The position numbers were made by a program, and so were the translations under genes. Below, piece after piece: positions 515 through 18,999 of a DNA stretch of 20,583 nucleotides (the first letter of the stretch is position 1; every line of letters starts with the position of its first letter). This DNA is from a virus. The notes under the pieces are model-generated. The model was not told the origin of the DNA and did no database searches. It was given only the letters and a program-made list of their open reading frames with translations. The stretch lies in IMG/VR virus record IMGVR_UViG_3300035698_028302, positions 1-20,583 of that record; one strand, given 5' to 3'.

Positions 515-1252
515 TTAATTTCTCCCCCAATTTTTAATTAATTCTAAAGATTTATAACTATATTTAAACTTTTCAGAAAGGAACTTACAAAAGATTTTTT
601 CCCAATAATCTCTATTTGCATTTGTTCTTAAATGATGTCTTGAACATAAAGTTATCAAGTTTGGTGGCAAACTATTTTTTTTATCATAATCTATATGGTG
701 TACACAAAGAAATTTATTTATTTTTCCTTCAAGTTCAGAAAGAAGAATTGCTTTTTGCCAAAACATCAAATCCTTTACATCTTCTTTCTTTTTTTCCAAT
801 TCAATCCTGCACAAAATACATTCATTATTATCTCTATCTTTAATTTTCTTTTTTAATTTTTTATTAAATTCAGGCCCATAAGATTCGAAAGATTTTCCTC
901 CCCGCCAATTATTTGTTAATTCCCCAGTTTTTCCTAATTTACTTTCCCTCATTTTTTCTTTACTTTTTTCTGATATTTTATTAAATTTAAAGTAAGGAAT
1001 ATTTCCTTCCTTAAATATTGTTGGTCTTTCATAGTTTAATCTTTTATCTGTTTTTTTTGTCAATCCTTTGTTCCAAGGAATAAATCCTTTTTCAAAACTT
1101 GTCTTATTTGATTTCATAACTCCTTTTGTTCCTTTATTCCAAGGAGTATGGCCTTTTTTATTTTTATTTCCTAATCCTTTTCCCTTCCTATTTTTACTAA
1201 TATTTTTTTTCCATTCTTCAGGATTTTTTGCTCTCCAGTGTTTCTTTTCCAT
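515..1252 (-). CDS. Free-standing HNH homing endonuclease with NUMOD-like repeats
   Basis: This 245-aa, Lys-rich protein is a mobile DNA-cutting enzyme, not a virion part. The N-terminal half has repeated PWNKG motifs (about 37-41 and 59-63) and a KMRESKLGKTGE helix with NNWRGG (about 100-119), as in NUMOD3-type DNA-binding modules. The C-terminal HNH domain shows C145-x2-C148, then C183-V-H185-H186-I-D-Y-D, N198 and C203-x2-H206-H207, the usual metal-binding and catalytic arrangement. It sits between tail-tip genes and is preceded by a conserved 5' element (1263-1291) and AGAGGA about 10 bases before ATG. Its stop is 1 base before the TTG of the next gene, whose ribosome site lies in its last codons. 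The insertion therefore keeps downstream expression intact. All HNH residues are present, so it may be active. Confidence 0.9.
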   Translation of the reverse strand: MEKKHWRAKNPEEWKKNISKNRKGKGLGNKNKKGHTPWNKGTKGVMKSNKTSFEKGFIPWNKGLTKKTDKRLNYERPTIFKEGNIPYFKFNKISEKSKEKMRESKLGKTGELTNNWRGGKSFESYGPEFNKKLKKKIKDRDNNECILCRIELEKKKEDVKDLMFWQKAILLSELEGKINKFLCVHHIDYDKKNSLPPNLITLCSRHHLRTNANRDYWEKIFCKFLSEKFKYSYKSLELIKNWGRN

Positions 1253-7480: not shown

Positions 7481-7510
7481 AAATCTCTTTTATATTTAAA
7501 CATTGATGTT
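7481..7510 (-). promoter_or_regulatory. Conserved 5' element, copy 2 (dyad TTAAACAT-CA-ATGTTTAA)
   Basis: The minus strand reads AACATCAATGTTTAAATATA followed by AAAGAGATTT, matching the elements at 1263-1291 and 19010-19038. Here the motif, with two preceding bases, forms a perfect 8-bp dyad with a 2-base centre, and it overlaps the stop codon of the intein-containing gene. The TTTAAATA box lies at 7493-7500. An archaeal promoter or operator for the tail genes is the likely role. Confidence 0.45.
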
Positions 7511-8777
7511 TAACTAACTACTTTGGATATTTCCTCAACAATTATATTTCTAAGTTTAGTATGAATTGTAGTTCGAATAAAAGGATTTGGCCGTGTTCCA
7601 GGATGCATCACTTTCTTCGCAAAGATCTCTTTTTTTCCTATCTTAAATTTCAATGACTTTTTATTTTTTGGAGTAATCAAATGTGGATTAGTATTGTGTG
7701 TTAAAATTCCATTAGCATAAAAAGAACTATTACCTTCTAAACTAAGATTATAAATTATTGACTTATTCATTTCAACTTTCTTTATACTCTCAATTTTTTC
7801 CATAAGAAACTCTTCAAATTGTTCTCTTGTATTTTTTCCATACCCATATTTATTGTGAAATCCAAGATGACATTTTTGACAAAGGGTAATTCCATTATCA
7901 ATATCCCCTGCTTGCTTTGGAAATTTATCTACTGAATTTAAATGATGTGCATTCAATCTTGCTTTTCTCCCCATATCCCCACAAATCTGACAAGTCCAAT
8001 TATCTCTTTTAAAAACATTTCTTGCAAATTCTTTGGATTGAGGAATTCCAATATATTTTCCCCTAAAATATCCCCCTTTCCACTGATGATTTTTCCCCCC
8101 AAGTTGATGTAATCCTTGCTTTTTTTTTGTTTCTTTAGATAAATTCCAATGCTTCCCTTTAGAATAATCATGACGAGAGTATTTATGATAACATTTCTGT
8201 GAACAATATTTTGCTCCATATTTTATTCTTGAGGGATTAACATAAAATTCTTTTCCACATCTACAGTTAAGTTTAATTTTTTCTTTTGTTCTTTCTTTAT
8301 TTCTTTTAGCTAAATCCTGTCTTTTTACCATATTTTTTTTATTACATCTCCTTTTTTCAAATCTCTCGCTTTCTTCCATCCATTACTTGTCCAAATTGGA
8401 TGATCTTCTGTGACCTCTAATTTTCTATTTTTTATTTTGATTATTATTTTTTTTATTGGATATCCTATTTCTAATCTTTCTTTTTGAATTATTTTTTTGT
8501 ATTCTTTTCCAGTCCAAATTAACTCTCCAATTTTCAAATCCTTTAATTTTTTCTTCCCTTCCTTTGTTTTAATAATAATACTATCTTTAAAAAAGCATCC
8601 AAATTCAACAAATTTTCCATAATCAACCATCCAAATAAGAAGGCCTTTCTCGGTTGATTTTACTTTAATAGAATTAGCTAATCTTCCTGAATCTACTGGT
8701 GCAGCCAAGAAGAGTTCATTTTGCATTCTTCTTGCAATACTTGGAAGTGCTGCGTCAAGTAATTTTTGGATATCCAT
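7510..8777 (-). CDS. HK97 gp10-type tail-completion protein interrupted by an out-of-frame intein
   Basis: The two outer parts together form a 120-residue protein of the HK97 gp10 family, which joins tail to head. The N-part is residues 1-60 (IARRMQNELFLAAPVDSGRL, then VDYGKFVEFG). The C-part has 60 residues (TNPHLITPKNKKSLKFKIGK, then IFAKKVMHPGTRPNPFIRTT). Rejoined, they restore the motif VEFG-TNPH that I recall as characteristic of the family. Between them is an intein with an HNH endonuclease domain. The first frame runs 8777-8325 (150 aa, stop TAA). The rest is in the -1 frame to 7510. A -1 slip at A8 (8340-8333) gives complement(8334-8777) joined to complement(7510-8334), 422 aa. Alternatively an ATG at 8329-8331, overlapping the first stop by 7 bases, starts a separate C-terminal polypeptide that could splice in trans. 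A sequencing or real indel is also possible. The start overlaps the previous stop (TAATG). Confidence 0.8.
7693..8597 (-). other. Intein with HNH homing endonuclease domain (about 302 aa after frame correction)
   Basis: The splice junctions are clear. Cys at 8595-8597 opens block A (CFFKDSIIIKTKEGKKKLKD). Block B is LEVTEDHPIWTSNGWKKARD with the T-x-x-H motif. The C-terminal blocks are IIYNLSLEGNSSFYANGILT and H-N (Asn at 7693-7695), followed by Thr as the +1 extein residue. Between them lies a Cys4 zinc-finger-like segment (CRCGKEF ... YCSQKC). A NUMOD3-like stretch follows (GKHWNLSKETKKKQGLHQLG). Last is an HNH domain: TCQIC, LNAHHLN, DIDNGITLCQKCH. All splicing and nuclease residues are present; only the frame is interrupted, at the A8 run after block B. 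The intein spans 905 bases, one short of a whole number of codons. Confidence 0.9.
8334..8340 (-). promoter_or_regulatory. Slippery heptamer A AAA AAA at the intein frame break
   Basis: The zero frame reads GTA ATA AAA AAA ATA TGG TAA. The heptamer A AAA AAA is in the correct register for -1 slippage, and a slip continues into NMVKRQDLAKRN of the nuclease-containing frame. It is the same heptamer as in the tail chaperone gene. Polymerase or sequencing slippage on A8 is an alternative. Confidence 0.5.
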
Positions 8778-9391
8778 TATATTCTATAAAGAAGTACAGT
8801 CAAGAACATAGAATCCCCTGCAAACATTCTTTCACTAATTGTGTCGATTCGGTACACAATTGAATTATGGGTTATCTTATCATATTTGTTAAGAGTTTGG
8901 GAATAAATTGCATACATTCTTGCATCTGCTCCTTCGCTAAGTCCAGATTTATTAAGAGAATATTTTGTGTCTGCATTTCCAAAGCAGACTACTATGTCTT
9001 CATCTGTTCCGTCGGTATAAGTTTTACTTCCATCTACATTGCCTGGGGTCATAGTGACAGGAGTTCTTGTTACGCTGATTCCAAAGTCTGTTAATGGGCC
9101 GTTCTCAAAGTCACTATTCCCACTTATTGTTGCTGCACCGACTCCCTCAAAATAATTAATAATAATATTTTGATCGTCGTAAACTGGAATCAAGAAAGTG
9201 ATTGTTGAACTTGCATCTAAATGTGAAATTGTAAAATCAGTATCTTTTATTAAAACCCTCGAAGAGAAAACCAATAGACCATTTGTTTGTGTTAATTGTG
9301 TATTAACTAAAGTTAAAACTCTACTTGTATCACCATCAGAACCAGTGCATTCACTTCCCGTTCTATTTTCAGTTTTTACTGCGATTGCCAT
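8777..9391 (-). CDS. Neck / head-closure-like protein (204 aa)
   Basis: Start and stop overlap neighbours by single bases (TAATG at both ends), so translation is coupled. Residues about 14-85 form a beta pattern (RVLTLVNTQLTQTNGLLVFS, DFTISHLDASSTITFLIPVY, NIIINYFEG). This resembles the insertion in the tail-terminator-like protein and part of the adaptor. The C-terminus (THNSIVYRIDTISERMFAGD, then MFLTVLLYRI) resembles small head-closure or stopper proteins, which end in an 'xxYRIxxVxxxxxxxxxxxLxL' beta hairpin. Position just before the gp10-like gene fits a neck component. The family assignment is tentative. Confidence 0.5.
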   Translation of the reverse strand: MAIAVKTENRTGSECTGSDGDTSRVLTLVNTQLTQTNGLLVFSSRVLIKDTDFTISHLDASSTITFLIPVYDDQNIIINYFEGVGAATISGNSDFENGPLTDFGISVTRTPVTMTPGNVDGSKTYTDGTDEDIVVCFGNADTKYSLNKSGLSEGADARMYAIYSQTLNKYDKITHNSIVYRIDTISERMFAGDSMFLTVLLYRI

Positions 9392-12300
9392 TAAATTTCA
9401 CCCCATCCATCTGAGCAATAATCCCATCTTGATTTATCTTCATTATAACATCTTGTTTGTTTTCCCCCACTTAATCCACCAGGACATTCTTGAATTATTC
9501 CCTTAATTAAACATTGATATTCTTTAACAAGTTCAACATTATTTAATGATTCAAGATGTTCAATTCTATTTTTTAAATTATCATTTTCTTGTTTTAGTTC
9601 ATAAAGAGCTTGTTCATGTTTAGCCAAAATATCTGAAATTGAAACCCCCTCTGATTCTTGTAATTCATAAGTAGATTCTTCTTTTCCAAAAAGTTTTCTA
9701 TTCTCCGTTGAAGTTTTTATTTTAACAATATTTGTTATAACATTTGGGCTCATTAGATTATGTCTTATTTTTCCATCTTTATCAATTAACTCCGACGCTG
9801 GTTTGATATAATCCCAAACACTTCCCCATTCAGATTTCCAAACTGATGTTCTTGTTATATAATCATCAGCAGAAACCGTTCCTTTAAACCATGCAAAATC
9901 TTCTGAAATTTGGGTATCTCCTATACTAAAATTAGAATTAGCATCTACATAAAAACCATCCTGATCTAAGAAAACTGTTGCCGTGCAATTTCCATAAGTT
10001 TGATCCTCACAAAAATCAAATTCAATTGTGTAATTCCATTTAGTAATCAAAAAAGAAGCATCACTCGTATCAATTACCCCAAAATCAAAAAAGGAATTAT
10101 CTGTTGAAGTTTCAATAACAGATATTGAAGGTGAATAAAAATCAGCAATAATTAAATTGCTTGTAGAGTTTGTACCAACTACTAATTTTTCAGATAAATT
10201 TGTTAAATAAATTGTATCTCCAAGACGGCTCCATTTATTGTCTCCCCCACCTGCAACACTAAATGTTTGCATTGTTAATCTCGAAGAGTTTGGAACTAAT
10301 TGTTCATTTGGTTCAATAGTTATTTGATCTTTTATTACCATTCTTATTTTATCCCCCACAGCTAATGATAAAGGTTTAGTAATTGCCATATAACCACTAA
10401 TTGTAGGATTTGTTTCTCTAAGATACTCTTGAGAAAATGCTCCATCTACCTCAACAAATCCTGAACCTGTGTCTCTTTGTAAAGCTAATCTCGGCGCACC
10501 TCTTGCCCCCCCTATTGTATTAACAATTTCAACACTTGCTTCAGCAGTTATAACATAAACTCCCTCTACAACAATCTCAACATTTTCTGGATTAACTGAC
10601 TCTGAATGGATATAATAATCTGAATCTTCTATTTCTTCTGAATCTAATTCAATAACTTGATCTAAATTTGTAATTGTCATTGAACTTGAGGCCTTACCAT
10701 GAAATATTGCATGAACAAAATCTAAGTCAGAACCCCCCCCACTATAAATTTGAATCTCAACTACTCCATTTGTTCTGTTTACTAAAGTCACTCCTGATCC
10801 TGTAAAATTAAGTTGCGTTGCTAAATTAATTACCTCTGTTCCATCCGAGATATTTATTCCTGAAATTCCTCCTCCACTTCCACATGCAATAAATTCTAAA
10901 CCAGTTTCACTTGAATTAACTGCTACACATTTTCCAGATTTTCCAACATAAGAACTTGGAGTATCTGAGATATTTAAGAATCCCTCAAACTCTCCATTTA
11001 TTACTGCTAAATAAGAATATTCAACCCACCAACTTACTTGACAATAACCCGCACCTCCCGCAGTTTTAGTATATGCTGTTAAAGTATCTCCATCAGAAAA
11101 ATCAAGATCACAAGTATTAGTCTCTGTATTCCCTGTCATTAAAACACTACAAGCAGCGTCTACACTATTAACTCTCATCGTAACATTTGTGCTAGTTCCT
11201 GCTGTCTGACAAGATAATCCTATCTTTTTAATCGTTCCATCATAAGCCATTGTTGGACCTTTCTGTGCATTTGCACCATTACCAAATGCCCACTCATAAG
11301 AATTATCATTCAATATTGAATTTTCCTCTGCCCACATTAATTCTCTGAAGGTTATTGTGCTTGTAACTTCTGCACCCCCGCTAATTAATTGATTTACAGT
11401 TTCATTCAACCATGTATTATTTAAGAACATAGTATTTGTGTCATTATATAGTTCTGGAGAACTACCTACTTTTCCAACTCCACTTCCTCCAAAAGATGAA
11501 GAACTTATACAAGAAGAATTACCAAGTAAAACTTCATCTCCATTACAAGCAGTTGAAGCATTTGTATCTGAGGTAGTTCCATTTAAATATTGGATTCCCC
11601 CCTCACCAGAAACATTCAAATATTCTAAGATTAAAGAGAATGAATTATTTAATGTTTTTTCGTTTGGCTCTGTAGTAATTATATCTTTTATGGTTATTCT
11701 AATTATATCTCCTGTACTTAAATCCTCATAAATTGTTTTAGATAAATGAGCACCAAGATTTTTTGTTTCACGAATATAGTCTCTGGAAACTGCACCATCA
11801 ATATCAGCAAATCCTGTTCCAGTATCTTTCTGAATTGTCATTATTGGCCCACCACGTGTTCCCCCTGTTGTATCTACAGAATAAATTGATCCCTCTGCTG
11901 ATATTTTATACAATCCATCTCTAAGCACTGTAACTTGCCCTTTATTAATTGATGTACTATGTGAATAATAATCTGTGTTCTCTCTTTTTTCTATTCCTAA
12001 AAATACTTCTGTTTGAACATTTGTAACCTTTTGTTCTTCATTATTATAAGCCTCAAATAATGCGTAAGTAAAATTAACCGGCGTTCCTGTAGCAGTTCCT
12101 CCAGAAATATTAATTAAAACTCCTGAACTCGAATTTATCATATCAACTCCACTTCCAACGATTGTGAGATTTGTTGCTAACTGAACTAATCCTGAATTAT
12201 TCAAAATATTAATTCCACTTTGATAATTTGTTAATTTTAAATCTATTGAATCATTTATCCATGAACCATTAACAGATAAAGATTTATTTTCTGTTCCACT

Positions 12301-14115
12301 GATTATTATCGAACCATCTGGAGAGAAAGCATCTTTTAAATAAGCAATTAATATTGCAAGTTTGCTTCCAACAAATCCTATTGTTGATTGATCTGGGTCT
12401 GCGCTAATTGTTGTTCCTGAAATCTCAATACCCTCTCCTCCAGTATAAGCAGTTCCTCCAGAGAAAATTACCCAACTATCACCTCCAGGAAAAGTATATC
12501 CAGCATTATTATCAAGATTAAGTAATGCCCACCCTGAACTCGGAGACTCGAATGTCCAATCTGTCCCATTGTATTCTGTAATATTATCTTCATATCCCGT
12601 CCAATTTCCAGCCCCAACAGAAGTAACAACATATCTATCTCCAAGAGTCGGAGCACCTGGTTCAGTATTTGTGAAGTTTAAAACTGGATCTTTCCAAGTT
12701 AATCCTGTCACTAGATCATCAACATATTTCTTTCTAACTGCTTGGTTGTCTGTTGTTGGATTTGCATTAGCAAGAACTGGAATCTGTAAAAATGTCTTTA
12801 CTCCATCTATTGATTCTGTTCCATTAATATGAACCACTGAATCATTTAGATTTGTTATTTGAGTGTCTGTATAAGTATTTGCTAACGCTGTTTGATTGTG
12901 TGCCCATGTAGCATAAGTTGAATTATAAGTTGAATTAAATCCAGCATCTAAACCTACATCTATTGAAGAAGAATTAAATTCTGTCATATTTATAGTTAAA
13001 TTTTTCTGAGTATCTGTACCTGAAACAATAATCATATCATCTTGGCTTTCAAGCGAATGAATAGGAATATTTAGTAAATCTAAAAGATTATTTCTTATAA
13101 CAAATGTAGAGACATTATAAGCAATTGTTAATAAATCTCCCTCAAATTTAAGCCCATCATTTGCTTTTATTTGAACACTAATATTTGTTCCATCTGAGAT
13201 TAAAATACCATTTCCTGAAGATAAACTTATGTTAGATGTTCCTGAATCAATGCAAGTCCCGTCAGAAAAACACATTTGATTAACATCATTCAAATTATTA
13301 TCATCCATTGAACCATCAGATTCTGAAACCCAATCCCCTTTCATAATTAAACTTGAAATATTAGCACCTTCAAAAACAACATAATCAGACTTATTTAATG
13401 TTTGGTCGAAAGGATTATAAATCTCCCAACTATTTTTACAATCTTCTGGAGAACCTAAACATAACTCAACTGTATGAACAGATGATAAATCAAAGAACTC
13501 ATGTCCTTCACCGTAAGCATCACCTGACATATTCAAAAGTACGACCTTCAACTCATTCAAAGTTAAATCTTCTCCAGATAACAATGTTTGAATATTTAAT
13601 GTTGTATTTACTGAATTTAATTTATCTGTTTCATTATACCTTTGGTCTGTTTTATTTAACTTTAAATCATCTAAAGCAGAATAATTTCCATCAATATCAA
13701 TTCTTAATTCGGCTTCACTTTCTGTTCTATTTCCTGAAATCATATCAACTATATTTTGCATTGTAAACATATTAGTAATTTTTAAGAATATTGAATCTAC
13801 CCAACTTGCTAAAGAATTATTATATACAACATCTTGAGAATCAACATAACTTTTGTTTGGATAAAGTTCATCTGTTAAAGTTTGATTAAAACTAAGGTTT
13901 CCTCCTACACCCCCTTCAATAATTGTTAACATCGAACCACATGTGCCTGTTGAATCATCGCATAAATAATCTCCATAAAAATATGCTCCATTTGTAATAT
14001 TATATCTATCTCTGAGATTAATGTTTGCACTTGGATCAAAGTCTGCACTAACAAAAAGGCAAGAAAACATTAATAAAAATAATATCATTAAAGTTGGCTT
14101 TAATTTAGATTTCAT
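9391..14115 (-). CDS. Giant secreted fibre-like surface protein (1574 aa)
   Basis: The start is the ATG in an ATGA overlap with the adaptor gene. It gives a clear Sec signal peptide: MKSKLK, then a hydrophobic core (LMILFLLMFSCLFVSA), then DFDPS. The mature protein is rich in N-x-S/T sequons (NLS, NKT, NGT, NSS, NWT). Around residues 455-540 it has a phage fibre-type unit (TDNQAVRKKYVDDLVTGLTW, APTLGDRYVV, NWTGYEDNITEYNGTDWTFE) like DUF2793-type tail-fibre domains. Two copies of a jelly-roll-like module lie at about 634-836 and 1082-1287. Near the C-terminus is a coiled coil (DILAKHEQALYELKQENDNL), then a four-Cys domain ending YCSDGWGEI. No C-terminal membrane anchor is seen. It is inferred to be an exported adhesin or glycosylated fibre. 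Its place inside the neck cluster is odd for a Sec-exported protein. Confidence 0.8.
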   Translation of the reverse strand: MKSKLKPTLMILFLLMFSCLFVSADFDPSANINLRDRYNITNGAYFYGDYLCDDSTGTCGSMLTIIEGGVGGNLSFNQTLTDELYPNKSYVDSQDVVYNNSLASWVDSIFLKITNMFTMQNIVDMISGNRTESEAELRIDIDGNYSALDDLKLNKTDQRYNETDKLNSVNTTLNIQTLLSGEDLTLNELKVVLLNMSGDAYGEGHEFFDLSSVHTVELCLGSPEDCKNSWEIYNPFDQTLNKSDYVVFEGANISSLIMKGDWVSESDGSMDDNNLNDVNQMCFSDGTCIDSGTSNISLSSGNGILISDGTNISVQIKANDGLKFEGDLLTIAYNVSTFVIRNNLLDLLNIPIHSLESQDDMIIVSGTDTQKNLTINMTEFNSSSIDVGLDAGFNSTYNSTYATWAHNQTALANTYTDTQITNLNDSVVHINGTESIDGVKTFLQIPVLANANPTTDNQAVRKKYVDDLVTGLTWKDPVLNFTNTEPGAPTLGDRYVVTSVGAGNWTGYEDNITEYNGTDWTFESPSSGWALLNLDNNAGYTFPGGDSWVIFSGGTAYTGGEGIEISGTTISADPDQSTIGFVGSKLAILIAYLKDAFSPDGSIIISGTENKSLSVNGSWINDSIDLKLTNYQSGINILNNSGLVQLATNLTIVGSGVDMINSSSGVLINISGGTATGTPVNFTYALFEAYNNEEQKVTNVQTEVFLGIEKRENTDYYSHSTSINKGQVTVLRDGLYKISAEGSIYSVDTTGGTRGGPIMTIQKDTGTGFADIDGAVSRDYIRETKNLGAHLSKTIYEDLSTGDIIRITIKDIITTEPNEKTLNNSFSLILEYLNVSGEGGIQYLNGTTSDTNASTACNGDEVLLGNSSCISSSSFGGSGVGKVGSSPELYNDTNTMFLNNTWLNETVNQLISGGAEVTSTITFRELMWAEENSILNDNSYEWAFGNGANAQKGPTMAYDGTIKKIGLSCQTAGTSTNVTMRVNSVDAACSVLMTGNTETNTCDLDFSDGDTLTAYTKTAGGAGYCQVSWWVEYSYLAVINGEFEGFLNISDTPSSYVGKSGKCVAVNSSETGLEFIACGSGGGISGINISDGTEVINLATQLNFTGSGVTLVNRTNGVVEIQIYSGGGSDLDFVHAIFHGKASSSMTITNLDQVIELDSEEIEDSDYYIHSESVNPENVEIVVEGVYVITAEASVEIVNTIGGARGAPRLALQRDTGSGFVEVDGAFSQEYLRETNPTISGYMAITKPLSLAVGDKIRMVIKDQITIEPNEQLVPNSSRLTMQTFSVAGGGDNKWSRLGDTIYLTNLSEKLVVGTNSTSNLIIADFYSPSISVIETSTDNSFFDFGVIDTSDASFLITKWNYTIEFDFCEDQTYGNCTATVFLDQDGFYVDANSNFSIGDTQISEDFAWFKGTVSADDYITRTSVWKSEWGSVWDYIKPASELIDKDGKIRHNLMSPNVITNIVKIKTSTENRKLFGKEESTYELQESEGVSISDILAKHEQALYELKQENDNLKNRIEHLESLNNVELVKEYQCLIKGIIQECPGGLSGGKQTRCYNEDKSRWDYCSDGWGEI
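10255..10870 (-). repeat. Jelly-roll module, copy 2, in the 1574-aa protein
   Basis: This encodes residues about 1082-1287: NISDGTEVINLATQLNFTGS, then DSDYYIHSESVNPENVEIVV, GGARGAPRLALQRDTGSGFV and EYLRETNPTISG. It aligns with copy 1 through shared landmarks: LAT-L-GSGV, DYY-HS-S-N, GG-RG-P-Q-DTG-GF-DGA-S, YIRET/YLRET, and GD-IR-IKD-I-T-EPNE. The fold looks like a C1q/TNF-type jelly roll. Confidence 0.8.
11606..12215 (-). repeat. Jelly-roll module, copy 1, in the 1574-aa protein
   Basis: This encodes residues about 634-836: INILNNSGLVQLATNLTIVG, NTDYYSHSTSINKGQVTVLR, GGTRGGPIMTIQKDTGTGFA, DGAVSRDYIRETKNLG and GDIIRITIKDIITTEPNEKT. It is clearly homologous to copy 2 but diverged, so the duplication is not recent. 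Confidence 0.8.
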
Positions 14116-14951
14116 CTTATACATGGCCTTGGCTTGATCATATCCATGAGTCTGTCTCTCTCTCGAATTAATTGGGTTGCTGTCTCTCTCCATTGGGTAT
14201 AAGGCTCCCCCTTTTGAACTTGAAACTCTGTTAAGTTATATCCTACTATGTCCGTCGCTGATTCTCCAACAATTCTTGCAACCAATGCAATTGATGCCAC
14301 AATATTCATAAGTTTTGTAAAATTTGCATTTATTTCTAATTTTACAACAGTGCTTCCTGACTCGTGCGCCAAAACTAATTGATCAACTACAATTGCTCCT
14401 GCTCCTGGTGTTGCATTAATTTGAGCAACTTCTTTGTTTCCATCCATTCCATAAATTTCAACCCAATCCTCGTCTGCAAAACCTGTAGTTGAATCCAATA
14501 CAATACTCACATCTGTCCCTGCAACTTCTGCTGCACTTGTCGTTGAACTCGTCGAACTTTCATTTAGCCAACCATAAAGATATTTAACAACTATGGCCTG
14601 ATGTTTATTTTTGAATACGCTATTTGTTAATGCTTGAGTTGTATCTAATTCTATTTTTCCACTTTCTTTATATACATGCAAATAAGCAGGATCTTCTGTG
14701 TCTCCATCAATTTTTAAGGCCCTAACAGCTAAGACAGGATTATAGTCTGTGAATATTCTTATTGTTCCGTTTCCGTCGAGAATATCAATTCTTTGTGTTG
14801 GAGTAAAAACTGTATTAAACCTTCTTGGAATTTGTGCTTCAACTTCTGTGATTGTGCTTCCTACATCAGCGTCGCTTATTTGCGTGATTGCTATTCCACA
14901 AGTTCTTCTTACACTTGCAACCGTAATATATGTTCCGTCTCCTGTAGCCAT
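14112..14951 (-). CDS. Head-tail adaptor (connector)-like protein (279 aa)
   Basis: ATG is preceded by AGGA at 8 bases. The N-terminus reads YITVASVRRTCGIAITQISD, followed by a helix with ITEVEAQIPRRFNTVF and a beta segment (RIDILDGNGTIRIFTDYNPV). This is the plan of phage head-tail adaptor proteins that dock on the portal. Residues about 130-205 are an inserted beta domain (DVSIVLDSTTGFADEDWVEI, GAIVVDQLVLAHESGSTVV). The C-terminal helices (NFTKLMNIVASIALVARIVG ... TQLIRERDRLMDMIK) fit the helical end of this family. The stop overlaps the ATG of the 1574-aa gene as ATGA. The adaptor role is inferred from fold pattern and place among neck genes. Confidence 0.65.
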   Translation of the reverse strand: MATGDGTYITVASVRRTCGIAITQISDADVGSTITEVEAQIPRRFNTVFTPTQRIDILDGNGTIRIFTDYNPVLAVRALKIDGDTEDPAYLHVYKESGKIELDTTQALTNSVFKNKHQAIVVKYLYGWLNESSTSSTTSAAEVAGTDVSIVLDSTTGFADEDWVEIYGMDGNKEVAQINATPGAGAIVVDQLVLAHESGSTVVKLEINANFTKLMNIVASIALVARIVGESATDIVGYNLTEFQVQKGEPYTQWRETATQLIRERDRLMDMIKPRPCIR

Positions 14952-14952
14952 T

Positions 14953-15147
14953 TTAAATTCCTATAAATTTTTTTAATCCAACAAAGATAGTTAAAATCAC
15001 CAACCAAATATATTGAATTTTTTTATGAAGTTTATAATCTCCAATTTTTTTCCTAATATGAATTAAATTATTATACATAAGAATATCTCTATCCATGCTA
15101 TTCATTTTTTTAAATTCAGGCAATCTTATATCAAGACCGTTTTCCAT
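14953..15147 (-). CDS. Small membrane protein (64 aa)
   Basis: This 64-aa protein has a polar helical first half (LPEFKKMNSMDRDILMYNNL, then IHIRKKIGDYKLHKK). One C-terminal membrane segment follows (IQYIWLVILTIFVGLKKFIG), with Lys residues on both sides. It begins 17 bases inside the end of the previous gene, with GGAGGAAAT before ATG. The shape resembles XhlA-type small phage proteins that have an amphipathic helix followed by one membrane span, but I see no clear match. It may relate to membrane association or lysis; that is only a suggestion. Confidence 0.65.
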   Translation of the reverse strand: MENGLDIRLPEFKKMNSMDRDILMYNNLIHIRKKIGDYKLHKKIQYIWLVILTIFVGLKKFIGI

Positions 15148-15538
15148 ATTTCCTCCTCAACTTTTTTTCAATATCATCACGAATTGGAATCTTTTCTTTG
15201 TTTTTAATTGCCTTAATTAAATCTTCTTTTGTAAATATTTCAATAATATCTTCTGCGGTTTTATATCCTATTCTTTTAATTTTTATTAACTCATTATAGA
15301 AATCTACTTTATCTTTTTTTTTACTAAATTGTTTTGTCTCTACCTTTTTTTTCCCGACTTTTCCCTCAGTAACTTCTGGTAACGATTCGTTACTTTTCGT
15401 TACTTTTTCAAATCCATATTTTAATCCAATTCCTTCAGGGAGATCAATAATTTCATTTGTTTTAACTCCAGTAAAACTATATCCAATAATTTCTTTAATT
15501 CTTACTTGAATAGGTTTTCCTTTATTTCTAAATTTCAT
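15131..15538 (-). CDS. 135-aa protein with C-terminal helix-hairpin-helix-like segment
   Basis: The chosen ATG overlaps the preceding stop as ATGA; an upstream in-frame start lies inside that gene. The N-terminal half is beta-like (KPIQVRIKEIIGYSFTGVKT, IIDLPEGIGLKYGFEKV). The middle is a Lys/Glu-rich linker. The C-terminal half contains NELIKIKRIGYKTAEDIIEI and FTKEDLIKAIKNKEKIPIRD, a pattern like helix-hairpin-helix units (IxxIGxKTAxxI). Similar small proteins occur near connector genes in phages, possibly as head-tail or decoration components. I do not assign a family. Confidence 0.6.
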   Translation of the reverse strand: MKFRNKGKPIQVRIKEIIGYSFTGVKTNEIIDLPEGIGLKYGFEKVTKSNESLPEVTEGKVGKKKVETKQFSKKKDKVDFYNELIKIKRIGYKTAEDIIEIFTKEDLIKAIKNKEKIPIRDDIEKKLRRKYGKRS

Positions 15539-15888
15539 TCTATCCTCGTGCATCCCTCTGGAGAACAAGACCATTTAATTCCTGCAGTTTGTGTATACAA
15601 AGGATATTCTTTTGGATCTGAAGGAGTTTCATCTTTTACTTCCTGCTCAACCTCAATTTTAACCCATCCTTCCTTGCAAACCTTATAAGTATCTCTTTCT
15701 AATTCTTCAGAATAATAAGTACACCTTGTTCCTAAACCAGAACTAATTTTTTCACAAAGTGCGACAATATCTCTTGACTCGCAATAATAAGCATCGTCGT
15801 CTTGAGAAATAAAATAAGTTGCTCCTCCGCCGATAAGCATAGCTAATGTAATAAATGCCCCGATTGTTAGTTTTGTTTTGTTTTCCAT
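15535..15888 (-). CDS. Membrane-anchored Cys-rich extracellular protein (117 aa)
   Basis: The N-terminal membrane segment (KLTIGAFITLAMLIGGGATY, about 6-25) is a signal anchor. It is followed by DDDAYYCESRDIVALCEK, GLGTRC, YKVCKEGWVKIE and a Pro/Glu-rich part, ending IKWSCSPEGCTRIE. The spacing C-x8-C-x10-TRC-x14-C-x2-GW-x-K-I is nearly the same as at the C-terminus of the 1574-aa protein. Both therefore probably carry the same disulfide-stabilised domain outside the membrane. It is coupled to the 922-aa gene by a TAATG overlap. Function unknown; a partner or anchor for the exported fibres is a reasonable guess. Confidence 0.7.
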   Translation of the reverse strand: MENKTKLTIGAFITLAMLIGGGATYFISQDDDAYYCESRDIVALCEKISSGLGTRCTYYSEELERDTYKVCKEGWVKIEVEQEVKDETPSDPKEYPLYTQTAGIKWSCSPEGCTRIE

Positions 15889-18656
15889 TATACCCTATGA
15901 ATATCTATTTGCGCGCTTGTTGGATGATCTCCGTAAGTTCCAGGGGTTTGCATACTTACAGTTGTTGAATTACTAATAAACTGTAATTTTATTTCATCTC
16001 CAGATGTCCATGAAGCCATTGTCCCTCTAAATATTGTTCCCACAGCGTTTTGTTTAGTTGTGTCTTTCTCAAATGTGCTTCCCTCTACTTCTGCACCATT
16101 CTTAATTAATCTAATTGCAACTATACTATCAGGATTTGCTTGGCTATCTATAAAGGAAAGTCCATAACTTATTTGATAAGTTCCTGTATCAACGATTGTA
16201 AAAGTATCGTTTGTATCGTCGCTATAAGTATGATTGATCCTTGCATTTTCAGAATCTTCATGAGTTTCAAAAGTCACATTCAACCAAACACCTTCTACAG
16301 CAGTAATTGAAACATCTGTATGAGTAGATAAATAACTTGGCAAATGAACATTTTCTCCAGTAATATTTGCAGTTGAATTTATTTCCCCTTCGACAAGTAA
16401 ACCTCCAGTAATTGTTATCCAACCATCAATGAGATTATCAATTATTTCTCCAAATCCCAAAGTGATCTTATCAAAAACAGATAAGTTTCCTTCAATATCT
16501 ACTTCCCCATTATTTAATGGATGAATATTTTCTACAGTTATGTTCTCAGCCTCTATGATCAGATTTCCAAGATAAGAAATTCCAGTTACATTTAAAGTAC
16601 CATCAATTACAACAGAATTATTAAAATTGCTTTCTCCTCCAATAAAAACATCATAAGTACCTCCTTCGTCATCTTGTCCAATATAAACTGTGCCATCTTC
16701 TCCAGGGTCTCCTGCACCAGATTCATCTCCACCTGACCCTGCAGGAACAAAAGTATGCCCACCTGCTCCTCCGTCAGTATCTCCATCAAAAGCATCAGAA
16801 CCATCTGCTCCTCCAATTAACAAATCTCCACCAAAATATCCTGTACCTGAACTTGATTCTCCACCTTCATGTCCTGTAATATAAAATGTTCCTGTTGCAT
16901 CAGTATCATCCTCGTCTGTTCCACTAATAAAGAAATCATGTGTAGGGTCATCCCCTAATGTAAGCCAAGCCACAATTTCATCATCATCTGATTCTCCACT
17001 TAATTCAAAGAGAGTAGATAATGTTCCGTTTACTATTGTTTTAATAATTAAATTTCCTACTTCTTCATTTACATCTGCATTATCTACAACTACTCTTATT
17101 TGACCATAATTTATTTGAGAAGCTCCCCCATCATAAAAATTAATTATTCCAAGATCATTATCAGCAGAAACAGAATCTCTTATTAAATTTAAAATACTCT
17201 CTCCATTGTTTGTTATATTAATTGAACTTGCATTAATATCTAAGACATTAATATTTGTTCCATTGATATTAGATTTAATACTTGAAGTTGCATTGTCCCA
17301 ATTATAAGCTCTAATTTCTCCTTGAATTTCTACATAATCATCAGTAGGATATGATTCATCTTCATCTGGATTAAGAACAATAAAATTTTCTGATTCTATA
17401 GATATATTTTCAGAACCATAAATAAACATTCCATCTTCATCATATTCAAAACAAAATTCTTCATTTGAATCTAAATCTGTTGTATCATTTAAAATACATA
17501 AACCTCCATAATTTAACAATCCCATAGAACTTCCATCATCACCATTAAACAACAAAGAACTTTCAAAATCTATTGTTGAATAATTACTTGAATAACCATC
17601 ATCACTATCATATAATTCCAAGTAACTAAGATTTAAAACCTTTCCACCAATTGATTGTATTAATTCTCCCCAAAGATTTATATCACTTGCATTAATATCT
17701 AAGACATTAATATTTGTTCCGTTAAGAATGTAATTTTGTAAGTCACTAATTTGAGATTCTGTTATTGTTGCCGCAGATAAATTAGAATCAAAATAACCCT
17801 GAAAGTCTGTTTCATTTGTCCAAGCATTTCCTAAAGTGGCAAAGTCAATAATCTGAGATGCAGGTATTGTAACGTTTGTCCAGTTCAACGCATAAATAAG
17901 GTTTATATTTGTTATGTTGTTTCCCCCCAAATCCAAATTTCCATTCCAAACCAACTCTCCAGCGACGAGTGTTCCTGTCACATTTAAAGTTCCATGAATT
18001 GTGGCTGAGCTCGCATTTAGATCTAACAGATCTACATTAGTTCCGTTTAAAATATAATTTTGCAAGTCTATTATTTGGCTTTCTGTTCCTGTGAAATTAG
18101 TCCAGTCTCTTGCAGAGATTGAATAAATAGAAAAATTATATCCTGTTCCATCAAGATTACTTTCTAAATTCGCAGCATAAAGATTAGTTGTATTTACTAC
18201 AATGAAATATCCTCCCTCTCCAGTAAAATTAAAACCTGTGCCATCTAAATTAGATTCTAAATTTGTTGCATATAAATTTATTACTTTTAAATTTGTAGTA
18301 TTTAGCCACCCTGAAACATTCAGATATGCTACATTATCTCCAGCGACGTCAACCCATAAATCTGCACAAGTCACTGAATCATTTAGTTGTGTGATCGCTG
18401 AACTTCCAGGACATGCAGAAGGATAATTTTGTAAACTATTCCAATCAATTGGTCCACCAATTCCTCCTGAAGCATTTATTTGAACAAAAATCCCTGTCGT
18501 TCCATTAAAAGTATTTGCAGAAATCCAATCCATATCATATAAACTATGCTGATCCCCAAGTTGATCATTAATCCATGGTTCTGTATATATTTCTGTTGCT
18601 GCACCAACTAATACTATAAAAAATAACGCCCACAACGCAATAAATATTTTTTTCAT
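15888..18656 (-). CDS. Secreted fibre-like surface protein (922 aa)
   Basis: The ATG at 18654-18656 has GAGGA 6 bases upstream and opens a Sec signal peptide (MKKIFIALWALFFIVLVGAA, then TEIYTEPW). Longer in-frame starts lie inside the preceding gene. The mature protein is dominated by N-x-S/T sequons (NGT, NAS, NVT, NLS) and short tandem repeats such as NLESNLDGTG (twice) and SDLQNYILNGTN-type units. A Gly/Asp-rich stretch at about 605-675 (DGSDAFDGDTDGGAGG) resembles a flexible stalk. The C-terminus, about 775-922, is a jelly-roll-like domain (FTIVDTGTYQISYGLSFIDS, GDEIKLQFISNSTTVSM). No anchor is visible. It is inferred to be an exported, glycosylated fibre or adhesin related in design to the 1574-aa protein. 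Confidence 0.8.
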   Translation of the reverse strand: MKKIFIALWALFFIVLVGAATEIYTEPWINDQLGDQHSLYDMDWISANTFNGTTGIFVQINASGGIGGPIDWNSLQNYPSACPGSSAITQLNDSVTCADLWVDVAGDNVAYLNVSGWLNTTNLKVINLYATNLESNLDGTGFNFTGEGGYFIVVNTTNLYAANLESNLDGTGYNFSIYSISARDWTNFTGTESQIIDLQNYILNGTNVDLLDLNASSATIHGTLNVTGTLVAGELVWNGNLDLGGNNITNINLIYALNWTNVTIPASQIIDFATLGNAWTNETDFQGYFDSNLSAATITESQISDLQNYILNGTNINVLDINASDINLWGELIQSIGGKVLNLSYLELYDSDDGYSSNYSTIDFESSLLFNGDDGSSMGLLNYGGLCILNDTTDLDSNEEFCFEYDEDGMFIYGSENISIESENFIVLNPDEDESYPTDDYVEIQGEIRAYNWDNATSSIKSNINGTNINVLDINASSINITNNGESILNLIRDSVSADNDLGIINFYDGGASQINYGQIRVVVDNADVNEEVGNLIIKTIVNGTLSTLFELSGESDDDEIVAWLTLGDDPTHDFFISGTDEDDTDATGTFYITGHEGGESSSGTGYFGGDLLIGGADGSDAFDGDTDGGAGGHTFVPAGSGGDESGAGDPGEDGTVYIGQDDEGGTYDVFIGGESNFNNSVVIDGTLNVTGISYLGNLIIEAENITVENIHPLNNGEVDIEGNLSVFDKITLGFGEIIDNLIDGWITITGGLLVEGEINSTANITGENVHLPSYLSTHTDVSITAVEGVWLNVTFETHEDSENARINHTYSDDTNDTFTIVDTGTYQISYGLSFIDSQANPDSIVAIRLIKNGAEVEGSTFEKDTTKQNAVGTIFRGTMASWTSGDEIKLQFISNSTTVSMQTPGTYGDHPTSAQIDIHRV
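17226..17261. repeat. 36-bp exact direct repeat, copy 1
   Basis: It is identical to 17685-17720 and encodes GTNINVLDINAS within the 922-aa protein. A more diverged protein-level copy (GTNVDLLDLNAS) lies near 18010-18045. Confidence 0.9.
17685..17720. repeat. 36-bp exact direct repeat, copy 2
   Basis: It is identical to 17226-17261 and lies 459 bases (153 codons) away in the same frame. Recombination between the copies would delete an in-frame block of the fibre-like protein. Confidence 0.9.
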
Positions 18657-18657
18657 T

Positions 18658-18999
18658 TTAATTCCTCGCAGCAACATAAGCCGTCGCTGTTGAATTTGAT
18701 TGTGTTGATGTTTTGCATCTCATATACGGATAAAATGTGTTATACCCATAATGATAAACAGCACTTCCATTTGTCGCAGTATAAGTTTTATCTTGAACAT
18801 CAAACCAAGTTGTTCCGTCGATACTTGCTTGAATTGTAAATGTCACAGCCCCTGTATTTGCTGCACTTGTTAAATACCAAGTAACTCTATTATACCATCT
18901 GCAATCAACCTTGTCTCCTGTTGTCGCGCTCGTAACCGCACTTAGATTTGTTGTTTCCTCTACAACTTTTCCTGCCCCCATCATTAACCTCTTTCCCAT
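18658..18999 (-). CDS. Small structural-type protein (113 aa), unknown function
   Basis: ATG is preceded by AAGGAGGAT, one of the best ribosome sites in the window, suggesting high expression. The protein is beta-rich: YNRVTWYLTSAANTGAVTFT, IQASIDGTTWFDVQDKTYTA and YPYMRCKTSTQSNSTATAYV. This resembles small beta-sandwich phage proteins (the pattern 'vtFtIqaSiDGttW.dv...t') that occur as decoration or fibre-associated proteins. It is the first gene after the terminator-like region and starts a new unit together with the 922-aa gene, 1 base downstream. The role as a virion component is inferred. Confidence 0.65.
   Translation of the reverse strand: MGKRLMMGAGKVVEETTNLSAVTSATTGDKVDCRWYNRVTWYLTSAANTGAVTFTIQASIDGTTWFDVQDKTYTATNGSAVYHYGYNTFYPYMRCKTSTQSNSTATAYVAARN

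Follow-up and report, generated by a model that had tools for sequence, protein, structure and literature searches.

All Caudoviricetes tail fibres that we know of are made in the cytoplasm and lack a signal peptide. Fibres of tailed viruses are thought to be folded and attached there, beyond the reach of archaeal N-glycosylation. The spike glycoproteins of enveloped archaeal viruses are exported and sit on membrane-bearing virions, whereas the virus described here is head-tailed and has no known envelope. As for phage proteins found on host cells, PblA and PblB are not known to have signal peptides, and Lom is a small outer-membrane protein with no known fibre or partner. The woesearchaeotal hosts considered below are tiny symbiotic archaea.

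Glycosylated viral surface proteins are documented as the spike glycoproteins of enveloped archaeal viruses (PMC10384203). In the tailed archaeal Halorubrum virus DL1, ORF24 has nine sequons and glycostaining suggests that some structural proteins are glycosylated (PMC10384203). ORF25 of the same virus has a DUF2793 region like that of fibre 2 described here but, unlike fibre 2, has no signal peptide and is encoded after the tape measure. Phage-encoded proteins at the host surface have been described (PMC2920869). PblA and PblB of phage SM1 and Lom of lambda are of this kind. Head-tailed proviruses of Woesearchaeales hosts have been reported, in a text that makes no mention of signal peptides, tail fibers or glycosylation (PMC11705971). 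None of the open-access papers searched describes exported fibres in tailed archaeal viruses, and the archaeal tailed-virus survey nowhere uses the term 'signal peptide' in its main text.

Two fibre genes within a block of structural genes

The window, i.e., the whole stretch of DNA analysed here, is a 20,583-base IMG/VR virus record whose structural genes lie on the minus strand. They are transcribed in the order beta-helix protein, p113, fibre 1, 117-aa TRCY membrane protein, 147-aa gene and 64-aa gene, followed by the adaptor, fibre 2, the p204 neck connector, a gp10-like protein with an intein, more tail genes and the hub (Table 1). The coordinates and lengths given for the two fibres in a preliminary description of this DNA are correct, and their placement inside the neck gene block is partly so: only fibre 2 is within the actual neck block, and fibre 1 lies between the head-side p113 gene and the adaptor block.

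Table 1. Fibre genes, partner genes and their parts in the window
Feature	Coordinates	Strand	Remark
p113, signal-less, beta-rich	18658..18999	-	
Fibre 1 (922 aa), with signal peptide, mature N-terminus of EPW type, a sequon-rich shaft that varies, and a C1q-like head	15888..18656	-	
Predicted signal peptide of fibre 1, residues 1-19	18600..18656	-	cut after VGA or after the next residue
C-terminal head of fibre 1, C1q/TNF-like (predicted)	15891..16352	-	
117-aa TRCY protein, membrane-anchored, Cys-rich	15535..15888	-	partner gene directly 3' of fibre 1
147-aa conserved signal-less gene	15131..15574	-	between TRCY and adaptor
279-aa protein in head-tail adaptor position	14112..14951	-	overlaps fibre 2 start
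Fibre 2 (1574 aa), with signal peptide, mature N-terminus of type A, DUF2793 region and coiled coil, and a TRCY module at the C-terminus	9391..14115	-	
Predicted signal peptide of fibre 2, residues 1-24	14044..14115	-	cleavage after VSA
Conserved mature N-terminus of fibre 2, type-A, DFDPSANINLRDRYNI	13996..14043	-	
TRCY Cys-rich module at the fibre 2 C-terminus	9403..9513	-	
p204, neck connector; its N-terminal GSDC domain spans about 9149-9373	8777..9391	-	proposed fibre 2 adaptor

Coupling of the fibres to adaptor and neck genes, also part of that description, is borne out at each junction: the fibre 2 ATG overlaps the adaptor stop codon in an ATGA, the fibre 1 ATG follows the stop of the 113-aa gene by 1 nt, and TAATG is common to the fibre 1/117-aa and fibre 2/p204 junctions. 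Such overlapping or touching starts and stops on both sides of the fibre genes indicate that the chosen start codons fit the sequence. In this respect, neither fibre gene resembles a lom-like moron, an autonomous gene uncoupled from its neighbours. In fibre-like domains, location in a structural block and exchangeable shafts and heads, the two proteins are akin to Caudoviricetes tail fibres and neck passage structures (BppL_N, DUF2793). Classical tail fibres have no signal peptide and are encoded 3' of the tape measure and hub, whereas the proteins here are exported (by prediction) and sequon-rich, with fibre 1 following p113 and fibre 2 placed between the adaptor and p204.

Export signals, sequons and predicted folds

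Signal peptides were called with a purpose-written scorer, not a trained predictor; it called 6 of 778 shuffled N-termini. Among all same-strand ORFs of at least 90 aa in the window, it calls only fibre 1, fibre 2 and the intervening 117-aa gene. Both fibres have a class I signal peptide according to the scorer and the homologues, with a conserved V-x-A cleavage motif, and the N-termini, cut at the predicted sites, read MKKIFIALWALFFIVLVGA followed by A... and MKSKLKPTLMILFLLMFSCLFVSA followed by DFDPS.... The dozens of N-x-S/T sites claimed alongside these signal peptides number 38 in fibre 1 (15.9 +/- 3.5 in shuffles, z 6.3) and 56 in fibre 2 (24.7 +/- 4.3, z 7.3), an excess of about 2.3 times expectation in both, while the reversed motif [ST]xN occurs at chance level (13 and 25, respectively). 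The shuffles and reversed motifs rule out the excess as a by-product of N/S/T-rich composition. For the remaining ORFs of the window, structural proteins included, sequon z values range from -1.4 to 2.3.

The same holds for pooled exported fibres of related viruses, with 548 sequons against 301 expected in the fibre-2 type and 141 against 63 in the fibre-1 type, and a preference for N-x-T. Control motifs in these pools are at or below expectation (reverse motifs 289 and 54, N..[ST] 261 and 52, for the fibre-2 and fibre-1 types), although NP[ST], a non-glycosylated motif, is also somewhat raised in fibre-2 types (16 vs 6.4). Cysteine makes up 1.2% of the fibre-2 type and 0.8% of the fibre-1 type. 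Signal-less fibres found at the same locus have 32 sequons vs 32.0 expected and 0.18% cysteine, and tail hubs have 11 sequons vs 13 expected. An STT3/AglB oligosaccharyltransferase is encoded in both archaeal metagenome-assembled genomes (MAGs) with related capsid genes (G001 and G002), whose link to the virus as hosts comes from binning. From sequence, we consider it very probable that the fibres are exported and N-glycosylated.

As to domains, fibre 2 matches DUF2793 (E 8.6e-10) and, below threshold, BppL_N. Fibre 1 has a sub-cut-off match to Pfam BclA_C (E 2.7e-8, 34.2 bits vs a curated cut-off of 38), supported by a single-chain model of its head as a C1q/TNF-like jelly roll (pLDDT 70, pTM 0.68). 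Foldseek relates this head model to BxpB (E 1.5e-7, query TM 0.5-0.6); its best structural matches are BxpB, ExsFA and C1q, with phage spike and short-tail-fibre domains ranking below them. The predicted fold is the one shared by the trimeric heads of BclA and BxpB/ExsFA, at about 10-18% sequence identity for most matches. Phage-fibre and jelly-roll domains had been proposed for the two proteins, which agrees with these results. Since C1q/TNF-like domains are known as trimers, the fibre 1 head would be expected to trimerise; we infer cleavage, glycosylation and trimers for the fibres. For the last 235 aa of fibre 2, the AlphaFold2 model was discarded (pLDDT 43), sequence searches against solved structures gave no match, and a scan of viral contigs with the fibre 2 C-terminus found no relative.

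Related viruses and their probable hosts

To collect relatives, the capsid protein of close relatives served as the query of a scan, which returned 77 viral loci and three MAG contigs, including one from a Woesearchaeota and one from an archaeon; a contig of a WOR-3 MAG that has a related capsid gene was left out of host assignment, as a binning error is possible. Another contig (C163 of G017), from the same archaeal order, carries a capsid gene together with a fibre-1 homologue, TRCY, the adaptor and an exported fibre 2, in the order of the window. The window is a fragment without terminase, portal or capsid genes; a terminase and a portal are present in L005, and a portal and an SU10-type capsid in L103. 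This virus group belongs to the archaeal tailed viruses, Caudoviricetes, and the related contigs in Woesearchaeota MAGs support the archaeal-virus reading made earlier from the letters alone.

About 30 homologous or equivalently placed fibres of related tailed viruses, some of them Woesearchaeota-binned, keep the signal peptide. Failure of signal-peptide predictions in homologues, the check put forward with the original claim, was looked for: homologues with an intact N-terminus retain theirs. Fibre 1 varies in length from 253 to 922 aa through loss or gain of shaft, and its C-terminal head is exchanged in some relatives. In some (L021, L070) the exported fibres are encoded at a different place, upstream of the protease and capsid genes. 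What follows the adaptor is a gene for an exported fibre or for a signal-less one that begins with a WDDTK domain and shows no sequon excess (three viruses: L032, L042 and L075), or the gene is absent. On the capsid tree, the fibre alternates between exported and signal-less among close relatives (exported in L033, signal-less in L042), and neither kind is present at this site in a deep clade.

Ahead of type-B exported fibres, WDDTK survives as a stub of 75-78 aa. An origin of exported fibres by splitting of cytoplasmic WDDTK fibres was rejected for now, as only the docking domain persists and the shafts share no similarity at E 1e-4. The mature N-terminal motif occurs in 3 of 287 genomes, twice on virus-like contigs and once marginally, and was on this count rejected as a general feature of host adhesins. 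A cellular-looking contig (L111:9026-17280) encodes adjoining exported proteins of 1185-1536 aa, likely Woesearchaeota surface glycoproteins, with 53 and 47 sequons vs 21.4 and 18.1.

A cassette of partner, fibre and membrane-anchored protein

The exported fibres are part of a cassette that consists of a small signal-less partner, the fibre, and often a membrane-anchored, Cys-rich TRCY protein. The partner of fibre 1 is p113, and an EPW-type exported fibre comes directly after every p113 homologue found (10 of 10). For fibre 2, the partner is the GSDC domain, fused here to p204. All 14 copies of this domain lie in loci with an exported fibre: it extends the neck connector at its N-terminus in the window and in L023, L034, L047, L122, L127 and L141, forms a fusion with the WDDTK docking stub of L030, L038, L049 and L054, and is free-standing in three copies. 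In L021 and L046, GSDC lies beside an exported fibre that sits elsewhere in the genome. The 11 testable loci with type-A mature N-termini all have GSDC, and the 5 with type-B ones all have a WDDTK-only stub; extensions of at least 30 aa are found on 10/10 connectors of fibre-bearing loci vs 1/24 others (Fisher p 2e-4 for N-terminal type and 8e-8 for connector extension, counts that ignore relatedness). Given such counts, the co-occurrence of partner domain and fibre could also be co-inheritance of neighbouring DNA. The pairing of an exported fibre with a signal-less cytoplasmic partner suggests an unusual way to put fibres on the virus or on the infected cell.

TRCY proteins lie 3' of many fibres, and the module is also found fused, to the end of fibre 2 in the window and, anchor included, to the N-terminal end of an L026 fibre; an alignment of 8 TRCY rows proved too diverse for use in a scan. 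A 550-aa protein (L025:17733-19385) has a second neck-connector domain at its C-terminus, and a short normal connector lies nearby. Giant signal-anchored proteins are encoded in the same structural blocks as the fibres (L034:3710-8947, L025:14036-17731, L070:4911-9005 and L004:10465-12559); they have a sequon excess (84 vs 28.5 in L034), and one has LamG domains.

Part of the cassette, the fibre-TRCY pair, also occurs outside tailed viruses. An 18-kb linear element from a Woesearchaeota-order genome (contig C37 of G133; L110, L105) encodes a type-B DNA polymerase (pPolB, PF03175, E 9e-72) and a HerA-like ATPase, has a 45-base terminal inverted repeat of 89% identity, and contains no recognisable portal or HK97-type capsid gene. 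Its genes include one for an exported fibre that has LamG and C1q-like domains, with one for a TRCY-like protein after it, and the element is probably a non-tailed, protein-primed virus with an exported fibre cassette. Part of the function of the cassette would thus be independent of a tail.

Possible destinations of the exported fibres

On the sequence evidence, we give an even chance to the reading that exported, N-glycosylated fibres mature outside the cytoplasm and join virions there via neck or head adaptors. In this scheme, the fibres of a tailed virus of Woesearchaeota-type archaea would be made late, with the head and neck proteins, exported by Sec and cleaved by signal peptidase I. 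N-glycosylation, and probably disulfide bonding, would take place outside the cytoplasmic membrane, and the fibres would mature at the cell surface, held there by the TRCY protein. Once the cell opens, they would join virions, with the conserved mature N-terminus exposed by cleavage binding a partner domain (p113 or GSDC) already on the neck or head. Surface holding and virion attachment are both deduced steps. That the partner is fused to two different proteins of the neck block, and matches the type of mature N-terminus, favours attachment to virions outside the cytoplasm; the fibre-TRCY pair of the non-tailed element weighs against it, as the role of the fibre may not depend on a neck.

That element counts in favour of another reading, possible but rather unlikely in our view, in which the exported glycosylated fibres are not virion parts and stay on the infected or provirus-carrying cell via TRCY, as adhesins or receptor-blocking surface proteins. 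It is consistent with the anchored TRCY proteins behind many fibres and the module fused to fibre 2 and to the L026 fibre, with the sharing of gene blocks with giant sequon-rich signal-anchored proteins that would not readily be virion parts, and with host chromosomal surface-type proteins being likewise exported and sequon-rich. Two relatives moreover encode signal-less tail-fibre-like proteins 3' of the hub, so that the exported fibres need not be the receptor-binding proteins. However, retention on the cell does not account well for a partner domain that is joined to neck proteins by two independent kinds of fusion and matches the N-terminus type, nor for the tight coupling of fibre genes to head and neck genes, and host genomes are nearly devoid of the mature N-terminal motif. 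Late-gene position and export would also fit a role of the fibres at the surface in opening or loosening the envelope or S-layer of the host for virus release, and large host-like glycoproteins could conceivably insert into a surface layer. We consider this improbable: domain searches found no enzymatic or lytic domain in the fibres, their C1q-like and fibre-like heads suggest binding, fibres are absent from this site in the deep clade, and sister viruses with signal-less fibres hint that release is unaffected when no exported fibre is made. Least credible of all, and very improbable, is that the hydrophobic N-termini are not used for export and the proteins are ordinary cytoplasmic fibres. 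Their position among structural genes and fibre-type domains known from phages would fit, and the signal peptides were called by a purpose-written scorer; yet the sequon excess appears only alongside a signal peptide and is missing from signal-less fibres of the same locus, V-x-A sites are conserved, and cysteines are enriched in the exported fibres.

Of the four options in the preliminary description, the analysis narrows the choice and does not decide it. Addition to virions outside the cell gains from the signal-less partner domains fused to neck proteins, and display as adhesins on the infected cell is favoured by the membrane-anchored partner and by the fibre-TRCY pair of the non-tailed element; superinfection-blocking decoys and structures for release receive no specific support in the sequence evidence. 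Display first and capture by the virion later could reconcile both destinations. More broadly, we tentatively propose, at less than an even chance, that head-tailed viruses of Woesearchaeota build their virion partly outside the cytoplasm, with adaptor domains of neck and head capturing Sec-exported, host-glycosylated trimeric fibres, and that the same cassette serves tailed and non-tailed viruses. Conserved exported, sequon-rich fibres would imply either a second assembly route for tailed virions or a remodelling of the surface of symbiotic archaea from a structural operon. The matched pairs of GSDC with type-A fibres and p113 with EPW fibres are concrete candidate binding partners, and the swap of exported and cytoplasmic fibres between sister viruses provides a natural experiment. 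Two sisters with closely similar capsids have, at the same place, an exported fibre with a docking stub (L033:6925-8768) and a cytoplasmic docking fibre (L042:8435-10318).

Inteins and a possible homing endonuclease

Between the hub and a tail-fibre-like gene of the window, a 245-aa ORF (515-1252, minus strand) resembles a free-standing homing endonuclease, with no match in Pfam. In the HK97-gp10-like neck gene (7510-8777, minus strand), the N-terminal and the HNH-bearing C-terminal parts of an intein lie in two different frames, and the intein is either naturally split or broken by a frameshift. An intein splicing domain is also present in a 657-aa protein encoded in terminase position, upstream of the portal, in a related virus (L103:8578-10551).
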